From NCBI GenBank assembly GCA_011523395.1, contig WTGW01000023.1, forward strand, positions 1 through 34,925: a stretch of DNA of 34,925 nt. The letters run 5' to 3'. A program made the position numbers and the translations under genes. Shown in pieces: positions 8,785 to 34,620 of the stretch; the first letter of the stretch is position 1, and each line of letters starts with the position of its first letter. Below the pieces are notes generated by a model. It was not told where the DNA came from. It worked only from the letters and a program-made list of their open reading frames with translations, and made no database searches. This stretch comes from Acidimicrobiia bacterium. Its GTDB lineage: Bacteria; Actinomycetota; Acidimicrobiia; Spongiisociales; Spongiisociaceae.

Positions 8785-8800
8785 GTCATAATATCATGAC
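8785..8800. promoter_or_regulatory. Palindromic operator candidate over the GntR gene start
   Basis: GTCATAATATCATGAC is a 16-bp palindrome with one mismatched pair (7 of 8 pairs match). It covers the ATG of the GntR regulator and a -10-like CATAAT at 8787-8792. A possible -35, TTGTGA, lies 19 bp upstream. GntR/HutC-type regulators commonly bind such dyads at their own promoters, so autorepression that also covers the whole downstream operon is likely. It is AT-rich against a GC-rich background, which makes chance less likely. Confidence 0.55.
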
Positions 8801-9551
8801 CTTTATGAACCGACTGGATCGACACCTCCAACGTGGCCCGCTTCCACTGTGGTTCCAGATCAAAGAACAACTTCGGCGCGCAATCGACATGGGCGAGTGG
8901 GCACCAGGCGAACAGCTTCCGACCGAAAGCGAGCTAACCGAGTTCTTCGGTGTCAGCCGGATCACGGTCCGCACTGCTTTCGAACGGCTAGGCGACCAGG
9001 GCCTGGTCGTACGGACCCCGGGAAGGGGCACGTTCGTCGCCCAACGTAGTTTCGAGCAGCCGGTCACCCGTCTCGCCGGATTCCACGAGGACATGGCCAG
9101 CCGTGGCTTCGTCCCTTCCGCTCACACTCTCTCGGTGCGGATCGTTCCCGGTCCCTCCGATGCGGCATCGGCTCTCGGAGCTGAGGGCGAGGAACTGGTG
9201 GAGATCCGACGCCTCCTCCTTGCTGACGACGCGCCGATGGCAATCCAACACGGATACCTCCCCACCTGGGTCTTGGGAAACAGTGAGTTCGCCGCCGCCG
9301 ACCTTCACAACAAGTCGCTCTACAGAATCATGGAGGAACGAACCGCGTCGCATCCGGCGACCGCGGAGGAGACGATCGAGGCAGTGCGAGCCGACGACAT
9401 CCAAGCGGACCTGCTGGGCGTGTCAGGGGGGTCGCCTCTTCTACTCGCCACCCGCCTGTCTCTCGATAGGTCCGGGAGGCCCGTCGAGTGGGTACACCTG
9501 TGGTACCGGGCTGACCGTTATCGCTTCCGGGTGGAGTTGCAACTCCCATGA
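8796..9551 (+). CDS. GntR-family regulator, HutC/UTRA type
   Basis: A 251-residue regulator. Residues about 15-80 form the GntR winged helix (LWFQIKEQLRRAIDMGEW, then LPTESELTEFFGVSRITVRTA and the wing PGRGTFVA). Residues about 95-245 form the UTRA effector domain, ending in VEWVHLWYRADRYRF. UTRA regulators sense small metabolites, often sugar phosphates. It is the first gene of a plus-strand operon, and its stop overlaps the kinase start as ATGA. Two starts are possible, ATG 8796 and ATG 8805; the palindromic operator covers the first. It most likely represses the kinase/BtpA/ABC-transporter genes until their substrate or its phosphate is present. Confidence 0.93.
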   Translation: MTFMNRLDRHLQRGPLPLWFQIKEQLRRAIDMGEWAPGEQLPTESELTEFFGVSRITVRTAFERLGDQGLVVRTPGRGTFVAQRSFEQPVTRLAGFHEDMASRGFVPSAHTLSVRIVPGPSDAASALGAEGEELVEIRRLLLADDAPMAIQHGYLPTWVLGNSEFAAADLHNKSLYRIMEERTASHPATAEETIEAVRADDIQADLLGVSGGSPLLLATRLSLDRSGRPVEWVHLWYRADRYRFRVELQLP

Positions 9552-10450
9552 TCGACGTGGTGGGCGACGCCTGTGTCGATCTGGTCCTGCCGGTCCCCAG
9601 GGTGCCCGAACCGGACCAGAAAGTGCACACCCGCACCGCGGCGATGAACCCGGGAGGAGTGGCGCTCAATGTGGCGGTCGCCTTGGCTCGGCTCGGTTCG
9701 GAGGTGGCGCTACATGCCCGAATCGGCCGGGACGCCTTCGGCTCCATGGTCCTGGAGGCACTTCACCACGAGGCCGTGGACGCCACGGGCGTGGCCGTCG
9801 ACACCTCGATCGATACCTATTTCACCATGTCGCTGATCGCTGACGATTCACCGGAGAAGCGGATGGTGGTGGCGGTGACACCCGGTCTCTATCCCAAGAC
9901 GACCAGCCTGGGGCCCGCGTCCTGGGGTCATACGGCTCCCTTCCATCCGAATGCCGCGGCCCGGGTCACCGACCGCTGGCGCATGCTGGACGTCCCGTTC
10001 TCGATCGATCTGGAACCGGCATGTCTTCCGGACGATCCGACCGGCATAGCGTCGGTGACCGCCGGCGCCGACACCCTGATTGCCAACGCCCGGGCCCGAG
10101 ACCTGCTGGCAGAGTCCGCCGAGGAGGCGCTCTGTGTCCTTTCCGGACCACTGGGCGGTCGTCACGCCGTGATAACCCAGGGGGCTGACGGCATCGTGTT
10201 CCGGTCGGAAGGGACCACGGGGCGGATCCCCGCTCACCCGGTCGAGGCGGTCGACACCACCGGGGCGGGCGACGGCTTCGCCGCCGGATACATCTGGGCC
10301 CGCACCCAGGGTGCGGGGGTGGTTGAAGCACTGGAGGTCGGCGTGTTGGTGGGAGGGATGGCCTGCCGGACGATGGGAGCACTCCCATCGTTCCCGCGCA
10401 TCGCCGAAGTTGAACCCTGGCTGGGGACCCTCGGGAAGGTCGGATTGTGA
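9548..10450 (+). CDS. PfkB-family carbohydrate/nucleoside kinase
   Basis: A 300-residue ribokinase-fold kinase. The N-terminal VVGDACVDLVLPVP and the PGGVALNVAVALARLG segment (about residues 35-51) match PfkB signature 1. DTTGAGDGFAAGY carries the catalytic Asp at about residue 242 and the anion hole. Family members phosphorylate sugars, nucleosides or related alcohols with ATP. Its ATG overlaps the GntR stop and its stop overlaps the BtpA-like start (GTGA), so it is translated in step with both. In context it probably phosphorylates what the downstream ABC importer brings in. The substrate is not readable from sequence. Confidence 0.92.
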   Translation: MIDVVGDACVDLVLPVPRVPEPDQKVHTRTAAMNPGGVALNVAVALARLGSEVALHARIGRDAFGSMVLEALHHEAVDATGVAVDTSIDTYFTMSLIADDSPEKRMVVAVTPGLYPKTTSLGPASWGHTAPFHPNAAARVTDRWRMLDVPFSIDLEPACLPDDPTGIASVTAGADTLIANARARDLLAESAEEALCVLSGPLGGRHAVITQGADGIVFRSEGTTGRIPAHPVEAVDTTGAGDGFAAGYIWARTQGAGVVEALEVGVLVGGMACRTMGALPSFPRIAEVEPWLGTLGKVGL

Positions 10451-11292
10451 GTCAATTACTGCCCAAGAAGCCGGACGCCCTGTCTGATATCTTCGATCGA
10501 CCGAAACCGATCATCGGGGTAATCCATCTCCCTCCCCTTCCGGGAGCACCCCGATACGACGGTCAACCGGTGGAGGACATCTACGCCGCCGGGGTTACGG
10601 ATGGACTGGCCATGTCCCGGGCCGGTATCGACGGGATCATCGTAGAGAACGCCTTCGACCTTCCCTTTTCCCGTCCCGAGTCGATCGGCCACGAGACTGT
10701 GGCCGCCCTGACCGGGGCATGTCTGCGGGTCGGCGACGCGGTGGATCTCCCCATAGGGATCACCTGCGTCGCCAACGGAGTCATGCCTGCCCTGGCCATC
10801 GCCAAGGCGGTGGATGCCCGCTTCGTGCGAGCCAACCAATGGGCCAACGCGTATGTCGCCAACGAGGGGATCATCAACGGTCCGTCCGGCGAAGCGCTCC
10901 GTTACCGGTCGGCGATCGGGGCCCGCGACGTGCGGATCTTTGCCGACGTCCACGTCAAATTCGGCGCGCATGCGATCACGTCGGACCGTACGGTCTCAGA
11001 GCAGGCCCGCGACGCCGAGTTCTTCGACGCCGACGTGCTGATCGGTAGTGGGCAACGGACCGGATCGATGACCGAGCCGGACGAAATACGCGCCATCCAG
11101 GCCGGCACCTCGCTTCCGGTCCTGGTGGGAAGCGGCCTAGACGTGGACAACGCGGCCGGATTGCTGTCGGTGGCGGACGGCGCAATCGTGGGAAGTTCAC
11201 TCAAATACGGAGGCACCTGGTGGAACCCGGTCGACCCTTCCATCGCCAGAAGGCTGATGAAGGTCGCGCGGAGCGTAAGAGACAAGACATGA
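10447..11292 (+). CDS. BtpA/SgcQ-family TIM-barrel protein
   Basis: A 281-residue protein of the BtpA family, which includes E. coli SgcQ and cyanobacterial BtpA. The diagnostic start GVIHLPPLPGAPRYDG is at about residues 24-39. It is followed by IDGIIVENAFDLPF, FADVHVKFG and a phosphate-binding-like end, LVGSGLDVDNA and GAIVGSSLKYGG. Family chemistry is poorly established; the fold resembles phosphate-binding TIM barrels. It starts at a GTG overlapping the kinase stop, which suggests it acts on the phosphorylated product. A sugar or nucleoside phosphate lyase, epimerase or hydrolase role is inference only. Confidence 0.88.
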   Translation: MSQLLPKKPDALSDIFDRPKPIIGVIHLPPLPGAPRYDGQPVEDIYAAGVTDGLAMSRAGIDGIIVENAFDLPFSRPESIGHETVAALTGACLRVGDAVDLPIGITCVANGVMPALAIAKAVDARFVRANQWANAYVANEGIINGPSGEALRYRSAIGARDVRIFADVHVKFGAHAITSDRTVSEQARDAEFFDADVLIGSGQRTGSMTEPDEIRAIQAGTSLPVLVGSGLDVDNAAGLLSVADGAIVGSSLKYGGTWWNPVDPSIARRLMKVARSVRDKT

Positions 11293-11314
11293 AAGCAAGA
11301 CCTAGGAGGTCAAT

Positions 11315-12883
11315 ATGAAACATCACCTGCGGTTGTGGACCGCACTGTTTGCCATACTGGCTCTAGTGGCCGCATCCTGTGGCGACGCCGATGGCGACGC
11401 CGAGGTCGCCGAGCCGACCACCACGGCCGCGGCCCCCGCGCCGGAACCCGAGCCCGAGGTGACCGACCCAGGCACCCTCGGCAACATTCCCGACCCGGGC
11501 GCGGCAGCCGGGCGGTTCGACGGAGTCGAGGTTGTAGTGGCCGGACCGGCCGGCCAACTCGACTACATGAAGGCCAAGGCCGCCGAATGGGCCGCCGAGA
11601 CCGGCGCCACCGTTCGGGTCGACGAAATCCCCTTCGGCGAACTCAACGACAAGGTGCTGGCGGCGCTCTCCACCGACACCTTCATCGCCGACGTCATCAA
11701 CATCGGTTCTAACCTGGGCGGCGACCTGATGGGCGGCGGGTTCATGGCCGCCGCGCCCGAGTGGGCCCAGCAGCGGGCCGATTGGGAGGGCATCCTTCCC
11801 ATCTTCCGGTCGAACCAGTTGTCGTTCGGCGGGGTCGCCTATGGCATGCCCTGGGACGGCGACGTCCTGATGTACTACTGGCGCGCCGACGCCTTCGAGG
11901 AGTACGCCGACGAGTACGAGGCGGCCACCGGGAATGCTCTCGCTCCGGCGGAGTCGTGGAGTGAGTACGCGTCCATCGCCAAGTTCTTCACCGAGAACGC
12001 CTGGTCGGACCAGGACGAGGGGTACGGCCTGGTCGAGTTGCCCATGCGCAACAACCAGGGATGGAACGGCTTCATGACCCGGGCGGCGGGATACGCCAAG
12101 GCGCCTAACGACCCCGGATTCTTCTTCGATCCCGAGACCATGGAACCCCGGATCAACAATCCGGGCTTCGTCCGAGCTCTCGAGGACTGGGGCGCCGTGA
12201 TCGAGTACGGCCCTCCGGGAATGCTCAACTTCGGTTGGATCGAGAACGCTCTGAGCTTTGTGGGCGGCATCGCCGCGCAGGACATCCAGTGGGGAGACAT
12301 CGGCCCGATGTCCAAGTCTTCCGACTCGGTCGTCGAGGGAGCGGTCGGTTACGGCCCCGCGCCCGGCGCGGACGAGTACTGGGATCCGGTGGCCGGAGCA
12401 TGGGCTTCCGGAGACGGCCCCAACAAGGCTCCCTTCCTGGGCTTCGGTGGATGGTTCAACCTGGTTCCCGCCACGTCCAACAACCTGGCGGCCGCCTTCG
12501 ACCTGGCCTCGTTCCTCGGTAGCCCGGAAGTGCTGGCCGAGGCGGCCGTGACGGCAGGTACCGGCGTCAATCCGGGAACCGCCGCCACGCTCGATCCGGC
12601 GCTATGGGTGAGCGCCGGATGGCCCGAGGACGAGGCGAGGGCCTACACCGACGCCATCCGGGCGTCGCTCGATCACCCCAACGCGGTGTTTGACATGAGG
12701 CTGCCCGGCTTCCCCGAGTACAAGGACGCATTGGAACTGGCTGTGTCAGAGGCACTGTCCGGTCAGGCCAGCGCCCAGGACGCCCTCGACGAGGCCGCGG
12801 AGAAGTGGAACGAGATCACCGACCGCTTGGGTCGAGATGAACAACTCCGCATCTACCGCGAGGCCCTGGGGCTCGCCGGCTGA
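11315..12883 (+). CDS. ABC transporter sugar-binding lipoprotein (CUT1-like)
   Basis: A 522-residue extracellular solute-binding protein of the type that serves CUT1 sugar importers. It has a lipoprotein signal peptide (positive MKHHLR, hydrophobic core, lipobox LVAASC with Cys22 lipidated). An acidic Thr/Ala/Pro linker follows, then the binding domain from about residue 65. The ligand-cleft part is rich in Trp and Tyr (GMPWDGDVLMYYWRAD), usual for carbohydrate binding. It is longer than most relatives (about 420-450), partly through the linker. An excellent AGGAGGT ribosome site precedes ATG 11315. A perfect hairpin follows the stop by about 20 nt. The ligand is probably a sugar or glycoside. 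Confidence 0.93.
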   Translation: MKHHLRLWTALFAILALVAASCGDADGDAEVAEPTTTAAAPAPEPEPEVTDPGTLGNIPDPGAAAGRFDGVEVVVAGPAGQLDYMKAKAAEWAAETGATVRVDEIPFGELNDKVLAALSTDTFIADVINIGSNLGGDLMGGGFMAAAPEWAQQRADWEGILPIFRSNQLSFGGVAYGMPWDGDVLMYYWRADAFEEYADEYEAATGNALAPAESWSEYASIAKFFTENAWSDQDEGYGLVELPMRNNQGWNGFMTRAAGYAKAPNDPGFFFDPETMEPRINNPGFVRALEDWGAVIEYGPPGMLNFGWIENALSFVGGIAAQDIQWGDIGPMSKSSDSVVEGAVGYGPAPGADEYWDPVAGAWASGDGPNKAPFLGFGGWFNLVPATSNNLAAAFDLASFLGSPEVLAEAAVTAGTGVNPGTAATLDPALWVSAGWPEDEARAYTDAIRASLDHPNAVFDMRLPGFPEYKDALELAVSEALSGQASAQDALDEAAEKWNEITDRLGRDEQLRIYREALGLAG

Positions 12884-13804
12884 CAACTAGACCAGAGCGC
12901 GCCCTGGTCCGTCCCGGCAAGTCGCCGGGACGGACCAGGCTTGCGCCGCGCTGGTTCATCTCGCCCGCCACCACCGCGGTGCTGGCCCTGAGCATCTTTC
13001 CGCTGCTCTTCTCGCTGGGCCTCACCTTTACCAACGTCAACCTCTTCCGGCGGACGCCGCTTCGCTTCGTCGGGCTGGAGAACTGGGCGCGCATCTTCTC
13101 GGACGAGGCGCTCTTAGAGACGCTGATCAACACCGTCATCTTCGTGGGTGGCGGCGTGGCTATCCAGTACACCCTGGGCCTGGCGCTGGCGGTGGCACTC
13201 AACCGGGGACTGCGCGAACAGCGCTTGATGCGGGTGCTGTTCCTGCTGCCGATGATGGTGAGTCCCATCGCGGTGGGCTTCATCATCGGCCGGATGGTGT
13301 TCAGCGAGGGGTTCGGGCCGATCAACGACATGCTGGACGCCCTGGGACTGCCCGCCGTGGCCTGGGTCACCTCGCCGGCCACAGCCAAGTTGACCATCAT
13401 CCTGGTCGACACCTGGCAGTGGACGCCGCTGATGATGCTCCTGATACTGGTCGGTCTGCAGGGCATCCCCGGCGAACCCCTCCAGGCGGCCCCGGGTGGA
13501 CGGCGCCTCGGAATGGCAGATCTTCCGCCACATCGTCTTCCCGCTGCTGCTCCCGGTCAGTATCACCGCCATCCTGATCCGCGCCCTGGAGGCATTCAAG
13601 ATCATCGACATCATCCGGGTGGTGACCGGAGGCGGCCCGGGCCGGGCCACCGAGTCGGTGACCGCCTACGTGTACAACGTCGGCGCCAAGCAGGGAGACC
13701 TTTCATACGCCGCATCGGCCGCCTACGTCCTGTTGTTCGTGGTGATCGGGGTCAGCTTGCTGGCGCTCTATGTCATGCGCCGGGTGCAGGAGCGGTACGC
13801 ATGA
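12880..13804 (+). CDS. CUT1 permease subunit 1 (MalF-like), frameshifted
   Basis: The MalF-like inner-membrane subunit, split between two frames. The first frame runs through the early helices ([19 protein letters not shown], then [19 protein letters not shown]) to [10 protein letters not shown]. Coding then continues one base over with [16 protein letters not shown], together forming the EAA loop that docks on the ATPase. One extra C in the run at 13490-13493 explains the break. The second frame ends at 13804, overlapping the next permease as ATGA. The start is uncertain: coding extends upstream of the only standard start (GTG 12979). I place it at CTG 12880, which overlaps the binding-protein stop as CTGA. 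Starting at 12979 would cut the first helix. Either a sequencing error or a real inactivating mutation. Confidence 0.72.
12903..12939. repeat. Perfect 16-bp stem-loop after the sugar-binding protein gene
   Basis: CCTGGTCCGTCCCGGC and its exact complement GCCGGGACGGACCAGG flank a 5-nt loop (AAGTC), 20 nt after the binding-protein stop. The following bases are GC-rich with no T-run, so this is not a standard rho-independent terminator. In several ABC operons a hairpin here protects the upstream mRNA and gives more binding protein than permease. It lies in the upstream part of the permease frame, where it could also hold back permease initiation. Confidence 0.85.
13490..13493 (+). other. Frameshift site in permease subunit 1 (CCCC run)
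   Basis: The run of four C's within GGCCCCGGG interrupts the conserved EAA loop. With three C's the reading is [11 protein letters not shown], exactly as expected for the family. With four the frame passes into nonsense and later happens to join the next permease's frame, giving the artificial 552-codon ORF 12979-14637. Confidence 0.85.
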
Positions 13805-14637
13805 AGGGCCGTGTGATAACCCGGGCGTTTCTGTGGCTGGCGGCGTTCATCACCCTGTTCCCCCTCTACTGGATCATCATCACCTCGTTCAAGACCCAAC
13901 TGGACATCGGGGTGAGTCCCACCTACCTGCCCTGGGTGGACTTCTTGCCGACCCTCGAGGGCTGGCGGTGGCTGCTGTCCGAGGCGCGGGCCGACGTCAT
14001 CAGAGCCATCACGAACAGCTTGATCGTATCCGGAGGCAGCGCCGTCCTTGCCACCATGCTGGGCGCCGCCGCCGGGTACGGCCTGACACGCTATGAGTAC
14101 CGGTGGCGATTCTGGAGAAACGAGGACATCGCCTTCTGGTTCATCTCCCAGCGAATGCTGCCGCCGGTGGCCATTGTGCTGGCCTTCCTCCTCATGTTCC
14201 GGTCGCTCAGCCTGCTGGATACCCAACTGGGACTGATCATCGCCTACACCGGTTTCGCCATTCCCTTCACGGTGTGGATCATGCGCGACGCCTTCGCGCA
14301 GGTGCCGATCGAATTGGAGGAGAGCGCCGGGGTGGACGGCGCGTCGGCCGCCGGCGTCTTCTTCCGCATCTCACTTCCCCTGGCCGTCCCCGGCCTGGTC
14401 GGGTCGCTCCTGTTCGCCTTCGTCTTCGCCTGGAACGAGTATCTCTTCGCCCTCATGCTCACCTTCCAGGAAGCCACCACGGTTCCCTTGCTTCTGGCCT
14501 CCCGGATCACCTCGTTCGGAGCCCAGTGGGACCAACTCTCCGCGCTCACCCTCACCAACCTGATCCCGGCTGCGATACTGGGCGTCATGCTGGAACGGTT
14601 CTTGATTCGGAACAGAACACAAGGATCCCTCAAGTGA
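13801..14637 (+). CDS. CUT1 permease subunit 2 (MalG-like)
   Basis: A 278-residue inner-membrane permease. Six helices are visible, starting [25 protein letters not shown]. The EAA loop reads [28 protein letters not shown], and the C-terminal [12 protein letters not shown] helix is typical of MalG-like subunits. It is complete and intact, unlike its partner. The ATG at 13801 overlaps the end of permease 1 as ATGA. In the ORF track it appears fused to permease 1, which I reject because the joining segment is out-of-frame sequence. It needs permease 1 and an ATPase to work. No ATPase gene is present here, so a shared MsmK/UgpC-type ATPase elsewhere is likely. Confidence 0.92.
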
Positions 14638-27240: not shown

Positions 27241-28095
27241 TTACGCGAGCCGTATGGCCTCGAGTAGCCAGGCGATGCTCTCGGCGACCATGCGGTCTTC
27301 GTCGCTTCCAGGCGGAAGCGTGGCCAGTTCCACGCACAACAGTCCCTCGAACCCGACCGACCGGAGCTCCGCCAACACGCCTTGAAGGTCCAGATCGCCC
27401 GCCCCGAGTGACGTGCACGGCCACCATCCTCCCGGGTCGCCGAACCCGGCTTCCGAGAGATCCAAGTCCTTCATGTGCACCATGTCGGTCAGGGGCGCCA
27501 GCAGGCGGGCGGCTTCCACCAGATCGCTGCCTACCCGGACCACGTTGGCCGTGTCGAGCACCACGCCGAGGTTGGGGGCTTCGACCCGGCGCACGAGGTC
27601 GGCCAGGGCTTCGACCGGGAGGGCGGTGTGGGTCTCGATCGACAACCGGACTCCGGCATCCCCGGCGTGCCGGCACGCCGCCTCCACCCTGGGCACGAGT
27701 CTGTCGACGGAGACATGGGGCGGCTCCTCTCCCCAGTGGGTGAAGGTGCCGACCACGAGCCGTACCAAAGGCACGCCCATCTCCGCGGCGTAGTCGATGA
27801 CGCGGAGCAGGTCCTCGAGCCTCTCGGCGGACTTACCCATCTCCAGACCTCCGGGATGGCCCCAGGCCAGCACGGCCTCGAGGCCGGCCTCGTCCAGGGT
27901 CAGGGCCAGACGATCCCGGAAGGTCGGATCGTCAAGATCCAGGTAGCAGGTCTCCAGGCTGACCCCGTCCACACGGAGTTCGGCAGCCCGGTCGACGAAG
28001 TCCCAGGTCGTCCAGCGGGTTCCGGGATCCTCCTCACCCTCCCTTATCTCGCCGAAGAAGCGATGGTACGAGTAGGTGTCGATCCCGACCCTCAT
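27241..28095 (-). CDS. Sugar phosphate isomerase/epimerase (xylose-isomerase-like TIM barrel)
   Basis: A 284-residue AP-endonuclease-2/xylose-isomerase-like TIM barrel. The metal ligands expected for the family are visible: Glu in SLETCY or RLSIETHT, Asp in VVLDTANV, His in VHMKDLD and Glu in CVELATL. The N-terminus RVGIDTYSYHRFFGE is typical of IolE/IolI-like proteins. Members isomerise, epimerise or dehydrate sugars, inosose or keto-sugars in the cytoplasm. It lies 21 bp after the Gfo/Idh/MocA gene on the same strand, so the two probably form a dehydrogenase-plus-isomerase pair. The substrate is not known. Confidence 0.9.
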   Translation of the reverse strand: MRVGIDTYSYHRFFGEIREGEEDPGTRWTTWDFVDRAAELRVDGVSLETCYLDLDDPTFRDRLALTLDEAGLEAVLAWGHPGGLEMGKSAERLEDLLRVIDYAAEMGVPLVRLVVGTFTHWGEEPPHVSVDRLVPRVEAACRHAGDAGVRLSIETHTALPVEALADLVRRVEAPNLGVVLDTANVVRVGSDLVEAARLLAPLTDMVHMKDLDLSEAGFGDPGGWWPCTSLGAGDLDLQGVLAELRSVGFEGLLCVELATLPPGSDEDRMVAESIAWLLEAIRLA

Positions 28096-28116
28096 GGCAG
28101 GGTCTGTGGAAGACCG

Positions 28117-29214
28117 CTACTCGACGCCGGAGACCCTGGCCAATCCTCCCGTCCTAAGGCTCTCGTAGGCGGCCGCCACCACCTCGACGGACCTGGCGCC
28201 TACCTCTGCCGGTGACCGGTTGGGCACGTCCTTGCCCTGGGTGAGGTCGATCAGCGTGCTGGGCGGGCCGTCGCACTGGTACAGCCCGGCGTGATCGGGC
28301 AGCTCGGGCTTGGCATCGACCCCGTCCTCGCGGAAGTGCCAGAGGAAGTCCCGCTCCAGATCCACGATCAGCTGTCCTTCGGAGCCGTAGAAGCGCACCT
28401 GCAGCTGGTGGCGGGGCCACGGCTCGTCGGCGATGTCGCCGATACCTGCCTGGCTGGGACAGCTGGCGCCGCTCAGCACCCCGGTTGCGCCCGACTGGTA
28501 GCGGATGCTGATGGCGTCGTGCAGGTCGACCCGGGCGCCGACGTTGTTCATCAGGGCGAACACGTCCTTGGCCCGCTCGCCGCTCAGCCACAGGGCCAGT
28601 CCCATGGCGTGGCTCAGCTGCGCGGGGGCATAGCCACCTCCGGACATGGCCGGGTCGGTCCAGGTGTCCCAATCGGGCATGAAGTCGGAGGCCGAGCCCT
28701 CGTAGGCGCCGGTGGCCTTCAGCAGTTCCCTGGTTCCGGAGGCCATCGCCACGAGGATGTGCTCGATATCCCCTACCCCGCCGTCCTCGGTCATCATCCG
28801 CTTGGCCTCGATGACGGTGGGCCGGTAGTGCCAGCCAAAGGAGATCACCAGATGCCGTCCCAGCGCCTTGGCCGTGGCGTCGAGATCCCAGGCGTCGGCT
28901 GGATCGATGGTCACCGGCTTCTCGCAAAGGACGTTGGCGCCTGCCTCCATGGCGGCCTTGGCGTGCTCATGGTGGAAAACCGACGGGCTCCCGACCACGA
29001 CCGCGTCCAGATCGTGCTCGAGCGCCTCCCGGTAGTCCTCGGTGATGTGCTCGAAGCCGAAGCGGTCCTTCAGCATCTCGAGGGCATCCCAGCCCTTGCG
29101 AACGGCCACCACCAGTTCCACGTCGTCCCGCGCCTTCAGTACGGGGATGTGGTTGCTCGCCGCCCAAGAACCGGCGCCGATCACACCTACCCGCACCCGA
29201 TCGTTCGCACCCAT
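28117..29214 (-). CDS. Gfo/Idh/MocA-family oxidoreductase (copy 1)
   Basis: A 365-residue NAD(P)-dependent dehydrogenase. The Rossmann motif VIGAGSWAASNHIP is at about residues 11-24, the family hallmark CEKPVTI at about 96-102, and SHAMGLALW holds the likely catalytic His in the C-terminal domain. Relatives oxidise sugars, inositols or sugar lactones. GGAGGG precedes the ATG at 29214. The second copy at 30793-31890 has the same length and shares long blocks (for example PWPRHQLQVR), so they are recent paralogues with probably different substrates. It is co-transcribed with the TIM-barrel isomerase and divergent from the rhamnose mutarotase gene. Confidence 0.92.
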   Translation of the reverse strand: MGANDRVRVGVIGAGSWAASNHIPVLKARDDVELVVAVRKGWDALEMLKDRFGFEHITEDYREALEHDLDAVVVGSPSVFHHEHAKAAMEAGANVLCEKPVTIDPADAWDLDATAKALGRHLVISFGWHYRPTVIEAKRMMTEDGGVGDIEHILVAMASGTRELLKATGAYEGSASDFMPDWDTWTDPAMSGGGYAPAQLSHAMGLALWLSGERAKDVFALMNNVGARVDLHDAISIRYQSGATGVLSGASCPSQAGIGDIADEPWPRHQLQVRFYGSEGQLIVDLERDFLWHFREDGVDAKPELPDHAGLYQCDGPPSTLIDLTQGKDVPNRSPAEVGARSVEVVAAAYESLRTGGLARVSGVE

Positions 29215-29345
29215 GAACCCTCCATTCCGCTGTCGATACCGAGCCCTCCGAACAATAATCGCGGCTCGGGGCCGGTCACATTCCCGGAGTACCGGGTCAG
29301 GCAGGCCCCAAGGCAGACAGTGCGGGTGTCGGCCGGCGTCTCAGA

Positions 29346-29356
29346 GTTGCTAGATT
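29346..29356 (+). promoter_or_regulatory. Candidate promoter for the rhamnose mutarotase gene
   Basis: TTGCTAGATT contains an extended -10-like TGC-TAGATT about 35 bp before the mutarotase ATG, in the spacer shared with the divergent Gfo/Idh/MocA gene. No convincing -35 is seen. Confidence 0.35.
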
Positions 29357-29391
29357 CGAGCGGGCACCCAGACGGTTTGGAGGAGGCTTCC

Positions 29392-29706
29392 ATGGAACGA
29401 GCGTGCTTCACGTTCGAGATCTATCCGGACAAGGCCGACGAGTACAAGAAGCGCCACGATGAGATCTGGCCCGAACTTGTCGAGGAGATTCAGAAGGCCG
29501 GGCTCAAGAACTACAGCCTGTTCCGCCGCGGCACCCAGGTCATCGCCTACGTGGAGGCCCACCCGGATGTGGCCACCGCCTTCAGCAAGATCGGACCCAC
29601 CGAGGTGAACGCCCGCTGGTCGAAATGGTTCGAGGATGTGATCCTCAGCCTCGTCGACGAGGACGGCAACCTCTACTGGGCCGAAGAGGTCTGGCACCTC
29701 GACTGA
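29392..29706 (+). CDS. rhaM: L-rhamnose mutarotase
   Basis: A 104-residue protein of the RhaM/RhaU family, dimeric alpha/beta-barrel enzymes that interconvert alpha and beta L-rhamnose (and fucose in some cases). Typical segments are CFTFEIYPDKADEYKKRHDE with the catalytic His, IWPELVEEIQKAGLKNYSLF, and the end YWAEEVWHLD. The true start is ATG 29392, with GGAGGAGG 5-8 nt upstream; the ORF-track frame from 28291 is a long upstream run-through. It is the only gene of its direction here, between two dehydrogenase operons, which suggests the region handles a 6-deoxy-hexose. Confidence 0.93.
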   Translation: MERACFTFEIYPDKADEYKKRHDEIWPELVEEIQKAGLKNYSLFRRGTQVIAYVEAHPDVATAFSKIGPTEVNARWSKWFEDVILSLVDEDGNLYWAEEVWHLD

Positions 29707-29714
29707 CCACCTCC

Positions 29715-29730
29715 ACGGCCGCGAGGCCGT
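29715..29730. terminator. Small hairpin between convergent genes
   Basis: ACGGCC-GCGA-GGCCGT is a 6-bp GC stem with a tetraloop between the mutarotase stop and the convergent dehydrogenase stop. No T-run follows, so it is only a weak candidate for a shared bidirectional terminator. Confidence 0.3.
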
Positions 29731-29737
29731 CCAAGCC

Positions 29738-30793
29738 TCAAGACCTGCCCGGAGGCCGACGCGGGGCCAACCACGGCGCGGTAGGTTGTAGCCGCGCCGG
29801 GGGGTAGAAGCCGGGCCGGGCCGCCAGGACGGCGGGAACCGCATTGACGAGCAGGGCCGCGGTGGTCGAAACGGCCGGCATACCCGGCTCCATCGTAAGG
29901 TAAAGTTCGTTCTCCCCGTAGATCCGGATGCGGTCGCGGGTCTGCCAACCGACCTCGCCCGGAGCCACGTGCAGGGAGAGTTCGAAGCGGAGCCACTCCT
30001 GTCCCTCGACCCATGCCGTGGCTAGCTGGACGACCCCTGCGGTCTCGGGCGGTTCGATCGTGTAACCGGCCAGGACGTGGACACGATCGGCCAGCACCGG
30101 CTCGATCTCCTCCTCGAACCGCTCGATCTCCAACCCCATCCCGTCCGCCACGATACGAGCGCTCTCCGCGAAGCCGATATGCCCGCGGACCCTGCGGGAA
30201 CGGACGGCGCTCCGGAACTCGGCCTCGCTGTAGCCGACACCGAGCGAACGGTGTACGTCCCGGCCGAACACGGATGCGTCGAGCGTGCGCTGGACGACGA
30301 TCCGCGAGACGTCCCAGGCGGCTGCCGCGAGCACAAGCGGGAGGGCGTCGAAGGCGAAGCCCGGATTGATGCCGGTGGCCGCGATCACCACCCCGGCCTC
30401 CTCGGCGGCGCGTTGCAGCGAGGCGCCGGCTCCCGGCTGTTCCACATCCGGCCAGGAGAGTTCCTCGCTGGTACTTACGACGTGAACACCCTTCCGGGCA
30501 CACAGCCGGATCAGGGGAAGTACGGAGCCGAGTTCGGACCTGGTCGCTATGAGCGCGACTTCGGGGCGTGCCTCATCGAGCATGGCTTCCGGGTCCGTCC
30601 AGATCCGTACGCCGGTCCAGGCGCCGGCGGTCGACCGGGCGGCAGCCGATGAGGGGCTACGGACGGCAGCGGTGACGGCCATCCAGGAGCGTTGGCGGCA
30701 CAGGTTCAACGCCGCGGTCGCGACGCTGCCCACACCGAAGAAAGCGATCCTCACCCGCTCCGACGTGTCGAGGTTCGCCTCCGGTAACTCCAT
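29738..30793 (-). CDS. DapB/Ord-like NAD(P)-dependent dehydrogenase
   Basis: A 351-residue protein with an N-terminal Rossmann fold (IAFFGVGSVATAALNL, about residues 16-31) and the segment GINPGFAFDALPLVL. That segment is characteristic of the dihydrodipicolinate-reductase-like group that includes 2,4-diaminopentanoate dehydrogenase. The C-terminal part is a mixed alpha/beta domain with a Pro/Arg-rich tail. I chose ATG 30793, which overlaps the stop of the Gfo/Idh/MocA gene as TGATG. The five-codon extension in the ORF track is not needed. It is the third gene of the VOC, Gfo/Idh/MocA, DapB-like operon. The substrate is unknown; an amino or keto acid derived from sugar breakdown is plausible. 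Confidence 0.85.
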   Translation of the reverse strand: MELPEANLDTSERVRIAFFGVGSVATAALNLCRQRSWMAVTAAVRSPSSAAARSTAGAWTGVRIWTDPEAMLDEARPEVALIATRSELGSVLPLIRLCARKGVHVVSTSEELSWPDVEQPGAGASLQRAAEEAGVVIAATGINPGFAFDALPLVLAAAAWDVSRIVVQRTLDASVFGRDVHRSLGVGYSEAEFRSAVRSRRVRGHIGFAESARIVADGMGLEIERFEEEIEPVLADRVHVLAGYTIEPPETAGVVQLATAWVEGQEWLRFELSLHVAPGEVGWQTRDRIRIYGENELYLTMEPGMPAVSTTAALLVNAVPAVLAARPGFYPPARLQPTAPWLAPRRPPGRS

Positions 30794-31890
30794 CAGGCCT
30801 CCTGCCAAGACACCTGAGCGACGGCTCCGGTGCTCGCGCTCTCGTATGCGGCGCTCAACAGCTCGACGGTCCTGGCTCCCACATCAGCGGGAGATCGGTT
30901 CTCCGCCGCCTTGCCGAGGGCCAGATCGATCAGCACATCGGGTGGGTCCTCGCACCCGTAGAGACCGGCGCCCGGTGGCAGCTCGACCTTGACATCCCTG
31001 CCGTCGTCGCGGAAGAGCCACAGGAAGTCCCGTTCCAGATCGGCCACGAGATGGCCCTCCGTGCCATACACCCGGACCTGCAGCTGGTGCCTGGGCCATG
31101 GGGCGTCCTCGTGGTCGACCGCGCTCCCGCCGGGTGGTGACGACGCGCCGGATATCGAACCCGTGGCTCCGGAGCGGAACCGGACGCTGATCGCGTCATG
31201 AAGGTCGACGGCGGCGCCCTCGTTGTTCATGAAGGCGAAGACCTGGGAAGCACGCTGGCCCGTGACCCACAACGCCAGCCCGAGGGCGTGGCTCAGGGCC
31301 GCCGGGGCGTACCCGCCGCCGGACAGCCTGGGGTCGGTCCAGGTCTCCTGGGCAGGTCGGAAGAATGAATCCTGGCCCCGGTAGCTCCCCGTGCCGTGGA
31401 GGAGCCCGCGCAGGCCGGAGGCCATTGCCACCAGGACGTGCTGGACTTCTCCGACACCGGGATCCTCCATCAGGCGCTTGGCCTCTACGGCGGTCGGACG
31501 GTAGTTCCAGCCGAGCGCGAGGACCAGGTGACGGCCGAGTTCCGAGGCGATGTCATGGAGTTCCCAGGCGTGGTCCGGTTCGGTGGTGAAGGGCTTCTCG
31601 CACAGCACGTGGGCGCCCGCCTCCAGCGCCGCTCTCACATGCTCGTAGTGGAGCCCCGCCGGGCTGGCCACGACCAGTGCGTCCAAGTCGAGCGCCAACG
31701 CGTCCCGGTAGTCGTGGCTGACATGTTGGAACCCGAACTTGTCAGCCAGCATGGCCAGCGCCTCACGGTTGGTACGGACGGCGCTCACCAGCTCGACATC
31801 GTCCCGTCCGGCCAGGATCGGGATGTGGTTGGCGATCGCCCAGGAGCCGGCGCCGATCACACCCACCCGGACCCGGCGACCCGATCCCAT
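30793..31890 (-). CDS. Gfo/Idh/MocA-family oxidoreductase (copy 2)
   Basis: A 365-residue dehydrogenase, paralogue of copy 1. It has VIGAGSWAIANHIP at about 11-24, CEKPFTT at about 96-102 and LSHALGLALW in the substrate domain. The shared length and block-by-block agreement along the whole protein show duplication of a complete gene. Differences cluster in the middle (GTGSYRGQDSFF against GAYEGSASDF), where the substrate pocket lies in relatives. It begins 5 bp after the VOC gene stop and overlaps the DapB-like gene, so it is in a three-gene operon of its own. Confidence 0.92.
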   Translation of the reverse strand: MGSGRRVRVGVIGAGSWAIANHIPILAGRDDVELVSAVRTNREALAMLADKFGFQHVSHDYRDALALDLDALVVASPAGLHYEHVRAALEAGAHVLCEKPFTTEPDHAWELHDIASELGRHLVLALGWNYRPTAVEAKRLMEDPGVGEVQHVLVAMASGLRGLLHGTGSYRGQDSFFRPAQETWTDPRLSGGGYAPAALSHALGLALWVTGQRASQVFAFMNNEGAAVDLHDAISVRFRSGATGSISGASSPPGGSAVDHEDAPWPRHQLQVRVYGTEGHLVADLERDFLWLFRDDGRDVKVELPPGAGLYGCEDPPDVLIDLALGKAAENRSPADVGARTVELLSAAYESASTGAVAQVSWQEA

Positions 31891-31895
31891 GTGCG

Positions 31896-32399
31896 CTAGC
31901 CGTAGGGGTTGACGAACGGGCTCTCGACCTCGAACGGCCTTCCCCCGTCGGCGAACTGGATCAACTCGATCGAGATGCCGTCCGGGTCGCGCAGGTAGCA
32001 GGTGAGGGCGCCCTCGTACCTACCCCAGGCGCAGCGGACCGGCTCCGCCGACACGAACACGGCGTGGTCGCGCATCCGTTCGTAATCCCGGTAGATGTCC
32101 TCTGTCTCCAGGCACAGGTGCGTGTTGCCGGCGTTGTAGGTGGCCATGTCCACCCGGCCGGGCGGCGGGTTGTGGTACTGCAGCATCTCGAGCACCGAAC
32201 CACCCGGCAGCGCCCAGAACGCTCCCGACATGTCACAGTTGGGGTATCCCACGATCTTGCCCACGTAGTCCTCGATGTCGGCGGCTATCCAGGTGCCCTG
32301 CATGAACGGCTCCTCCTCGAGGAACCGGGTCCACCAGGGAACCGATACTTCCAGGTCGGTTACCGCCACCCCGACGTGGTCGATCGAAAGAAAGCTCAC
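31896..32399 (-). CDS. VOC-fold (glyoxalase/dioxygenase-like) protein
   Basis: A 167-residue vicinal-oxygen-chelate protein. The metal ligands of the family are in place: His8 in SIDHVGVAV, His in NTHLCLETED and Glu in ISIELIQFAD. Two beta-alpha-beta-beta-beta modules are visible. VOC enzymes act as lyases, epimerases or dioxygenases on small metabolites. The true start is GTG 32399, with GGGAGGT 7 nt upstream; the ORF-track start at 32639 runs through the divergent promoter. It heads the operon with Gfo/Idh/MocA copy 2, so a sugar-derived substrate is likely. Confidence 0.87.
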   Translation of the reverse strand: MSFLSIDHVGVAVTDLEVSVPWWTRFLEEEPFMQGTWIAADIEDYVGKIVGYPNCDMSGAFWALPGGSVLEMLQYHNPPPGRVDMATYNAGNTHLCLETEDIYRDYERMRDHAVFVSAEPVRCAWGRYEGALTCYLRDPDGISIELIQFADGGRPFEVESPFVNPYG

Positions 32400-32511: not shown

Positions 32512-32574
32512 CCGACCGGATCCGGTCTCGATCCGCAACGACTCAGGGGACGACCCAACCGAGGAGGTCCACGT

Positions 32575-34620
32575 ATGCCCAGCTTCGACCGCTCAGACGT
32601 ACCGCAGGCCGACCTGGAGTTCGTGGTGATCGCCGACACCCATCACCTGGTCGATCCGGGTATGTACTCGACCAAGGGCGATTCGGTCACTCCGGAGATC
32701 GTGCGCGAGTGGTCTGACCGGGGTGACTGGGCACTGGCTCTCACCAAGGCGACCGAGACCGAGCTGGTCTTCCATGTGGGGGATCTTGCCCAGGAGTACC
32801 CGGGATCCCGATTCTTCGACACCGGGAGACGAGCCGCCGTAGCCCAGTTCGAGGAGTCGGGCCTGGAGGTCAACTTCGCGGCCGGCAACATGGACATCGG
32901 CGACAAGCCGGATCCCACGGTGCCCGCCGGCTGGGTGGAACCGGGATTCCTGAAACGCTGGGACGAGGACTTCGGCAAGTCGTTCTTCAGCCGGACCGAA
33001 GGCGATACTCACTTCGTCGTCCTCAACTCCCAGATCATGAACACCACCCTCCCCGAGGCGATAGAACAGCGCGAGTGGGTGGAGGCCGACCTCGCCGCCC
33101 ACGCCTCGTACCGGATCTTCTTGTTCATGCACCTTCCGCCATACCTCGTCGACGAGGACGAGCCCGGCCTGGGCAGCTACGACGTGCTCGGCAACCCGGA
33201 CCGGACCTGGCTGCTGGACCTGTGCAGGCGCTACGAAGTCGAGGCCCTGTTCAGCGGTCACACCCATTTCCAGGTCTTCAACCGAACCGGCGGCACCCGC
33301 TTGTACACCCTTCCCTCGACGACCACCACCAGGCCGGGCTTCTACGAGGCCTTCAACGTGTGTCCGCCCGACCGGGGATGGATCGACACCACCAAGCTCG
33401 GTTTCTTCCTGGTCCGGGTCACCGATGACGCGACCTCGGTACATCTCATCCGCACCAGCGGGGAGACCCACGCCAACCACCCGGCCGGGTCCCGGATCCT
33501 GACCGGCACGACCGTCGATGTGCCCCACTCCCCCGCAGCCACCTACCTGCGACTGCCCATCACCAACCAGAGCGACGGGGCGATCTCCTATCCCAACCAC
33601 GTGAGGCACAGGATCCGTGACGACTACCCCCTGCTCTCCTGCGTAGAGGCGGGTATCCGCCATGTGCGGTTCCCGATCCATGACCTAGACGTGGCTCTAC
33701 AGGCCGGACAACTCGCTGTGCTGCGGAGCGAAGGGGTGCAGCTGACCGCGACCGTCCTGTGTCCGAGGCCCGGCCACATAGCCGCTGCGGCTCGGAAGGC
33801 CTCCGAAGCAGACTTCATCGAGGTCCAGCTGACCAACCGTTTCCTGCCGGAGGGTGAGGATCTCGAGGCCCTCGCGGAGCTGCGGGAAGCGGGAGTTGGG
33901 GTTGCGATGGCCCCGCTGGCGCTGGAGGACACCGGCAAGGTGCACCTGCGAAGCCGGACCGGCTTCCGACCCCGGGAACTGCCGGACCTCGACGACATGG
34001 TCAGCGAACATGGCGTTCATCTGGACCGGGCGGTCTGCATGGTCGACGACTCGGAGTCGGTGTGGAACGACATCCGGGCCTTCGACACGCCGCTCCGCTC
34101 CGTGGGAGGTCTCGACTTCCTAGTCCCGCTTGGCGCCGACGACGGAGCCAACGCCCAGGCGGCCGCCGAGGCCCTGTTCGCAGCCGCCACGATGCCCGGT
34201 TGCCGCCTCTATCTCGACCCGCTACAGGATCTCGACCGGGTGACCAAGGTCGTAAACGGGCTGCTCGACCGGTTGTCGAACCCGCGCCCGGCCTTCCACG
34301 TGACGAGGGTACTGAACACCGTGCTGTTCGGGGAAGGTCGCAGACCGGGAACCTACACACCTGTGGGTTCCGGCGGGCTACCGGGTGCCGCAGACGTACG
34401 GGTAATCAAGGATCGGAGAGCCGAGTTCTGGCTGGTGCCCGATCAGGAGAGGCGGAGGGCTGCCGAGACCCTGCGGCAGGAGATCGACGAGCACCAAACT
34501 CTTAGGCTGATTGACCCGATAGCCGGAATGTCCTGGCAGATGCCACGCGGACCTGTGGCTGACCTGGTGGCCTCCCCCGAAAGCGGCCCGATGCCGGTGG
34601 TTCAGATCCCTTCGTTGTGA
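32575..34620 (+). CDS. Metallophosphoesterase fused to a C-terminal alpha/beta domain
   Basis: A 681-residue protein. The first 290 residues are a calcineurin-like phosphoesterase: VVIADTHH (Asp21, His23), HVGDLAQ, AAGNMD (where the family usually has GNHD/E), LFMHLPPY and SGHTHFQVF. Missing the GNH His would remove a catalytic proton donor. The last 320 residues contain repeated strand-helix units (IRHVRFPIHD, TATVLCPRP, FIEVQLTN, GVAMAPLAL, DFLVPLGADDG) that look like a TIM barrel, with no family I can name. No signal peptide is seen, so it is probably cytoplasmic. A GAGGAGG ribosome site precedes ATG 32575. It lies divergent from the VOC operon and may process a sugar-phosphate diester. 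Confidence 0.82.
   Translation: MPSFDRSDVPQADLEFVVIADTHHLVDPGMYSTKGDSVTPEIVREWSDRGDWALALTKATETELVFHVGDLAQEYPGSRFFDTGRRAAVAQFEESGLEVNFAAGNMDIGDKPDPTVPAGWVEPGFLKRWDEDFGKSFFSRTEGDTHFVVLNSQIMNTTLPEAIEQREWVEADLAAHASYRIFLFMHLPPYLVDEDEPGLGSYDVLGNPDRTWLLDLCRRYEVEALFSGHTHFQVFNRTGGTRLYTLPSTTTTRPGFYEAFNVCPPDRGWIDTTKLGFFLVRVTDDATSVHLIRTSGETHANHPAGSRILTGTTVDVPHSPAATYLRLPITNQSDGAISYPNHVRHRIRDDYPLLSCVEAGIRHVRFPIHDLDVALQAGQLAVLRSEGVQLTATVLCPRPGHIAAAARKASEADFIEVQLTNRFLPEGEDLEALAELREAGVGVAMAPLALEDTGKVHLRSRTGFRPRELPDLDDMVSEHGVHLDRAVCMVDDSESVWNDIRAFDTPLRSVGGLDFLVPLGADDGANAQAAAEALFAAATMPGCRLYLDPLQDLDRVTKVVNGLLDRLSNPRPAFHVTRVLNTVLFGEGRRPGTYTPVGSGGLPGAADVRVIKDRRAEFWLVPDQERRRAAETLRQEIDEHQTLRLIDPIAGMSWQMPRGPVADLVASPESGPMPVVQIPSL

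Follow-up and report, generated by a model that had tools for sequence, protein, structure and literature searches.

A conserved fusion of a calcineurin-like phosphoesterase to a glycosidase-like barrel in Acidimicrobiia and other bacteria

Introduction

What might a metallophosphoesterase do when it carries a second, barrel-shaped domain and has methionine in place of the histidine usual in its fourth motif? The question is raised by a gene in the window, the whole stretch of DNA that was analysed (34,925 nucleotides from an Acidimicrobiia bacterium), which is one entire contig of a 3.1-Mb draft genome with Acidimicrobiia MAGs as its closest named kin. Pfam cannot see the barrel and the protein would be labelled merely "metallophosphoesterase", a label that would hide a conserved fusion known from five or more phyla, whose bacteria are mostly uncultured. 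In the literature that we covered, which takes in few subscription papers, we found no account of such a fusion. We report that the two-domain architecture is real, conserved and apparently undescribed.

Results

The fusion gene and its surroundings comprise the following features.

32575..34620, plus strand: whole gene of a 681-aa two-domain protein (ATG start; full-length relatives)
32562..32567 (approximate), plus strand: likely ribosome-binding site GGAGG, 7-8 nt 5' of the ATG (read from the sequence)
32575..33468, plus strand: calcineurin-like phosphoesterase domain, residues 1-298 (Pfam PF00149, 35.5 bits; Foldseek to Rv0805, 2.6e-10)
32884..32895, plus strand: GNMD motif, residues 104-107, with Met106 at the usual general-acid His site (sequence and alignment)
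33535..34344, plus strand: predicted (beta/alpha)8 barrel, residues about 321-590, PslG/GH39-like in fold and without the acid/base Glu (AlphaFold2, Foldseek, alignment with n = 54)
34357..34617, plus strand: small alpha/beta tail, residues 595-681 (AlphaFold2, comparison with relatives)
31896..32399, minus strand: divergent glyoxalase-family gene with a likely GTG start at 32399 (genomic context)
27241..31890, minus strand: sugar-catabolism-like cluster with a xylose-isomerase-like barrel, two GFO/IDH/MocA dehydrogenases and a DAP-dehydrogenase-like protein (context, kept in relatives)

Differences between the fusion gene and its orthologue at locus L021 are distributed over the three codon positions as 55/45/116, and this third-position excess indicates that the open reading frame is a real coding gene. 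The N-terminus of the protein runs straight into the first phosphoesterase strand and no signal peptide was seen by eye, and the protein is therefore probably cytoplasmic. We also observe that genome G001 holds a second copy of the fusion (L018, G001:C60:4763-6796), 90% identical to that of the window, which may represent a second strain, the G001 assembly being 5% contaminated.

Next, we investigated how widely the fusion is distributed. The 54 relatives come from named Acidimicrobiia, Chloroflexota, Planctomycetota, Latescibacterota and Gemmatimonadota and from further genomes, and both domains are present wherever the contig allows. Most genomes of the window's genus have a relative (one of them cut by a contig end), as do 2 of the 5 other genomes of its family that were searched, other families of its order and 36 of the 64 genomes in the phylum to which G313 belongs. 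Additional relatives were found in Caldilineaceae, Thermomicrobiales, another Chloroflexi MAG (L037) and Latescibacterota, Gemmatimonadetes and Planctomycetota records. The original prediction had proposed a search for stand-alone homologues of the C-terminal part, and across 564 genomes (199 of Actinomycetota, 301 from the G311 phylum and 64 from the G313 phylum) no stand-alone barrel occurs among the matches inspected, a set outside of which lies one 162-aa fragment in G816. Three short barrel matches (L116, L130, L133) are truncated at the edge of a contig, with part of the phosphoesterase left. As every barrel match inspected was either fused to a phosphoesterase or a contig-cut remnant of the fusion, the fusion is the unit of inheritance.

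Two loci need separate mention. An apparent fusion to a sulfatase at L035 was rejected, since it came from the wrong reading frame; the right frame is 9977-12043 and the sulfatase is the next gene. In the Chloroflexi groundwater copy (L037:9920-12173), a frame change breaks the phosphoesterase and the tail carries an odd insert, reflecting either an assembly error or a pseudogene.

We then examined the N-terminal domain, which Pfam Metallophos matches over residues 16-231 with 35.5 bits against a gathering cut-off of 21.5, and for which Rv0805 and GpdQ are the top Foldseek matches in the PDB. The metal motifs of the window protein are D21-x-H23, G69-D70, G104-N105-M106-D107, H186 and G228-H229-x-H231, so that all seven metal ligands (D21, H23, D70, N105, H186, H229, H231) are present, and the same seven are invariant in every covering row of the 54-member alignment, which extends down to about 28% identity. 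By profile and by ligands the protein belongs to the calcineurin-like metallophosphoesterase superfamily, and phosphoester hydrolysis is predicted on this basis. In place of the GNH[D/E] fourth motif of the class III cyclic-nucleotide phosphodiesterases (subclasses A/B: Rv0805, CpdA, PdeM) the window protein has GNMD; it is not filed under these subclasses, yet its function may be like theirs. It also differs from the YfcE-type subclass C, of about 183 aa and with GNCD, in having 681 aa and GNMD, and its score against the NCBIfam yfcE model, 17.2, lies below the cut-off of 56.25. The motif extends in the fusion protein to GN[HM]D[IV]GDKP, and the genomes of the window's own family also contain other metallophosphoesterases, with GNHD or GNHE.

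At position 106, directly after GN, 33 of the 53 covering rows of the alignment have His, 18 have Met and 2 have Gln. All Met rows form one clade (SH-aLRT 100) in a tree built without the position-106 column, and the direction of change is likely from His to Met, as read from this quickly built, midpoint-rooted tree with some long branches. One of the two Gln (GNQD) rows, L109 (match G699:C9:3088-3912), may be sister to the Met clade (support 87) and the other, L119 (match G816:C34:28000-28827), is placed elsewhere, so that on this tree they need two independent changes. An artefact or sequencing error at Met106 was ruled out, the residue being common to 18 relatives of a single clade. YfcE carries GNCD and hydrolyses bis(pNPP) (PMC4320098), and LpxH carries at the same position an Arg, which binds the substrate phosphate (PMC5016852). 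Because Met106 is inherited within a clade and the position already varies (Cys in YfcE, Arg in LpxH), it is, on the alignment and by analogy with these enzymes, to be read as an inherited clade-specific variant and not as the mark of a dead enzyme. The replacement of GNHD by GNMD that the original prediction singled out is thus real but less remarkable than it appeared, a clade-specific state at a position where active metallophosphoesterases also vary. With three different residues (His, Met or Gln) in the general-acid place and the rest of the dimetal site intact, the family provides a natural comparison in which the role of this residue is testable.

To the C-terminal part we applied structure prediction, with 19 window and database sequences as input to AlphaFold2. 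The full-length model has a mean pLDDT of 80 and a pTM of 0.88, and the C-terminal part alone reaches a pLDDT of 84 and a pTM of 0.87. The predicted region is a complete (beta/alpha)8 barrel at about 321-590, with strands at 321-324, 363-367, 389-396, 414-420, 442-449, 483-489, 510-517 and 543-547, and a separate tail at 595-681, which is largely absent from the Acidimicrobiia His-type relatives. Model confidence is lowest in the loops round both presumed active sites (pLDDT < 50 at 108-116, 196-208, 253-269 and 330-349), and for this reason the model does not fix how the barrel is turned relative to the metal site. The TIM barrel postulated from the sequence is therefore borne out in the model as a domain separate from the phosphoesterase, and the possibility that it is an ordinary extension of known phosphoesterases is disfavoured by its closest fold, a GH39-type glycosidase.

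Sequence profiles reveal little of this relationship. For residues 336-681 no Pfam model matched and the NCBIfam search gave a sub-threshold match alone (12 bits, where the cut-off is 310); a Pfam scan of 13 family barrels gave no convincing match, a single-protein sequence search against the PDB returned nothing useful, and Pfam PF01229 matched nothing in the window genome, nor anything in 58 genomes from the same order. In a Foldseek search of the PDB, PslG (5bx9) ranked first for the barrel (5.2e-9, TM 0.5), three orders ahead of GH30 xylanases (from 6e-6), which were followed by generic barrels. PslG was also first in a profile HMM search, with a weak match (E = 0.095) that covers the segment following beta-8, which reads GLLDLDANPKP in PslG versus GLLDRLSNPRP in the window protein, the two having D-L-D...GLLD..NP.P in common. 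Against classical GH39 profiles the HHalign probability is 5%, with a weak match at beta-8. Overall, the barrel agrees with the GH39 type in its predicted fold and weakly in sequence; it would be GH39-like in fold and not a GH39 member, and its putative link to PslG consists of the fold and one short sequence match.

We further asked which glycosidase residues the barrel retains. PslG catalysis involves Glu165 and Glu276 (PMC11912335). In the beta-4 region the family has WE[IV]Q[LI]P or similar, of which W-E-[IV] is akin to the WEVWNEP stretch of GH39 proteins, and the GH39 acid/base Glu of the NE motif after beta-4 is absent in 54 of 54 members, the Asn-Glu being replaced (matched by motif, not by superposed coordinates). 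Position 518, that of the beta-7 nucleophile, is not Glu in the Met clade, the window protein having Pro there; 23 of 54 members, most of them His-type, do have Glu. The two-step enzyme of the original prediction accordingly loses ground, and survives only as a bifunctional enzyme with a chemistry other than GH39 hydrolysis.

The barrel is nevertheless strongly conserved at R344, R348, D350, P367, D370, E416, G463, D552, D554 and R555 (invariant, 54/54). By model secondary structure, the invariant R344, R348, D350, D370, D552, D554, R555 and D565 are in front loops, whereas E416 is in beta-4, and at least 90% conservation is observed at 15 of 93 positions in front loops versus 1 of 28 in back loops. 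The front loops are those at the strands' C-terminal ends, on the face where such barrels usually have their active site. Since the invariant charged residues are mostly on that face, the alignment and the model suggest that the barrel has not decayed but still holds a ligand site, in which Arg and Asp abound.

Finally, we examined the genomic neighbourhood. The sugar dehydrogenases said to accompany the gene are there, as two GFO/IDH/MocA oxidoreductases adjoin it, together with a DAP-dehydrogenase-like protein, a xylose-isomerase-like barrel and the divergent glyoxalase. In relatives, as in the window, the fusion gene and a glyoxalase gene point away from each other, and beside the fusion gene are the GFO/IDH/MocA pair, the DAP-dehydrogenase-like protein and usually the xylose-isomerase-like barrel; a ribose-type ABC transporter is found in relatives on the opposite side of the fusion gene. 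Among other loci, a GFO/IDH/MocA gene directly follows the fusion gene in L032, sulfatases and GH130 are neighbours in L035, a xylose-isomerase-like barrel, PhyH proteins and a sulfatase in L148, and a sugar nucleotidyltransferase and a GHMP kinase in L154, with relatives of both in L142 and L156. The neighbours of the Acidimicrobiia His-type fusion genes are unrelated to sugars, and when a substrate-naming neighbour gene was sought across clades, no one neighbour spanned them all. Carbohydrate genes mostly recur beside the fusion gene across clades, with no universal partner.

Additional gene arrangements were observed around these loci. In L032 (13016-15254) and its Caldilineaceae counterparts L027-L031, two tandem ketol-acid-reductoisomerase-like genes and then an amidohydrolase gene are downstream of the fusion gene. 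A conserved cluster surrounds the His-type fusion gene in L148 (5946-14087) and its counterparts L144, L146, L147 and L150; it contains the xylose-isomerase-like barrel, a ferredoxin-thioredoxin-reductase-like protein, two PhyH dioxygenases and a protein without a Pfam match, with the sulfatase further on, and not every part was called in every locus. Within the window, GntR/UTRA regulator, PfkB-family kinase and BtpA-family genes lie in a row at 8796-14637, followed by solute-binding protein and ABC permease genes, resembling a separate sugar-uptake operon.

Discussion

We propose, with a probability of roughly one half, that the fusion protein works in the cytoplasm as a dimetal phosphohydrolase on a phosphate linked to a sugar or cyclitol, and that substrate recognition falls to the barrel, itself derived from a glycosidase. 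The N-terminal domain would be a phosphodiesterase or phosphatase of the Rv0805/GpdQ type, hydrolysing its substrate by means of two metals and a bridging hydroxide. This metal chemistry is predicted because it follows from the superfamily; the substrate, the role of the barrel and the replacement of the general acid are what we infer beyond it. The barrel would no longer cut glycosides, and would instead hold a phosphorylated substrate by its sugar or cyclitol part and present it to the metal centre, perhaps also binding an anionic group, given its several arginines. In the Met clade the leaving group could be protonated by another residue (the invariant K111 and D110 are candidates) or by water, or might need no protonation, and the product would feed a local sugar-catabolic pathway.

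Other readings place the activity differently. The barrel may keep an active site of its own and, with a different chemistry, work in sequence with the phosphoesterase; its invariant charged residues (R344, R348, D350, D370, E416, D552, D554, R555) exceed what a decayed scaffold would be expected to keep, Glu persists at beta-7 in the 23 mostly His-type members, and the two domains always occur together. The loss of the acid/base Glu throughout the family and of the beta-7 Glu in the Met clade, along with the lack of a convincing Pfam family for any of the 13 barrels scanned, speaks against such a bifunctional enzyme, which we consider doubtful. A more far-reaching version, a hitherto undescribed family of two-domain enzymes whose glycosidase barrel was turned into a new catalytic site for a different phosphosugar chemistry, coupled to a dimetal phosphoesterase that dispensed with its general-acid His in one clade, appears to us slightly less credible still.

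Conversely, the barrel could be an inert structural part, serving stability or dimerisation of an ordinary phosphoesterase. Stand-alone metallophosphoesterases of 280-345 aa, without the barrel, are indeed present in the window's order, but conservation is strongest in the front loops of the barrel and not on a hydrophobic outer face, which makes this explanation improbable. We give marginally less credence to the Met clade having become a non-catalytic sensor or scaffold, a binding or regulatory protein without the general-acid His. This would be in keeping with the replacement of the catalytic His in 20 of 53 relatives, but the Met clade keeps all metal ligands invariant across five phyla, metallophosphoesterases without this His are active (PMC5016852, PMC4320098), and the protein has no signalling domain.

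Comparison with known systems

The class III phosphodiesterases Rv0805 and GpdQ are like residues 1-298 in fold and in all seven metal ligands, but are single-domain proteins with GNHD, whereas the fusion protein has GNMD, the extended GN[HM]D[IV]GDKP motif and the barrel. PslG and GH39 (clan GH-A) offer the closest fold to the barrel and have in common with it the short segment after beta-8; they possess a catalytic Glu pair, in contrast to the fusion family without the acid/base Glu (54/54) and the Met clade without the beta-7 Glu. In YfcE (GNCD) and LpxH (Arg) the same His is replaced as in the Met clade, although the replacing residue is another one and both are small single-domain proteins of other sequence groups than the fusion family. 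Also close are the GNHD-type relatives of the window's order and of the phylum of G313, which have His at 106 and, in Acidimicrobiia, mostly no C-terminal tail, but which have the same two-domain build, those of the window's order with 28-33% identity to the window protein over its full length.
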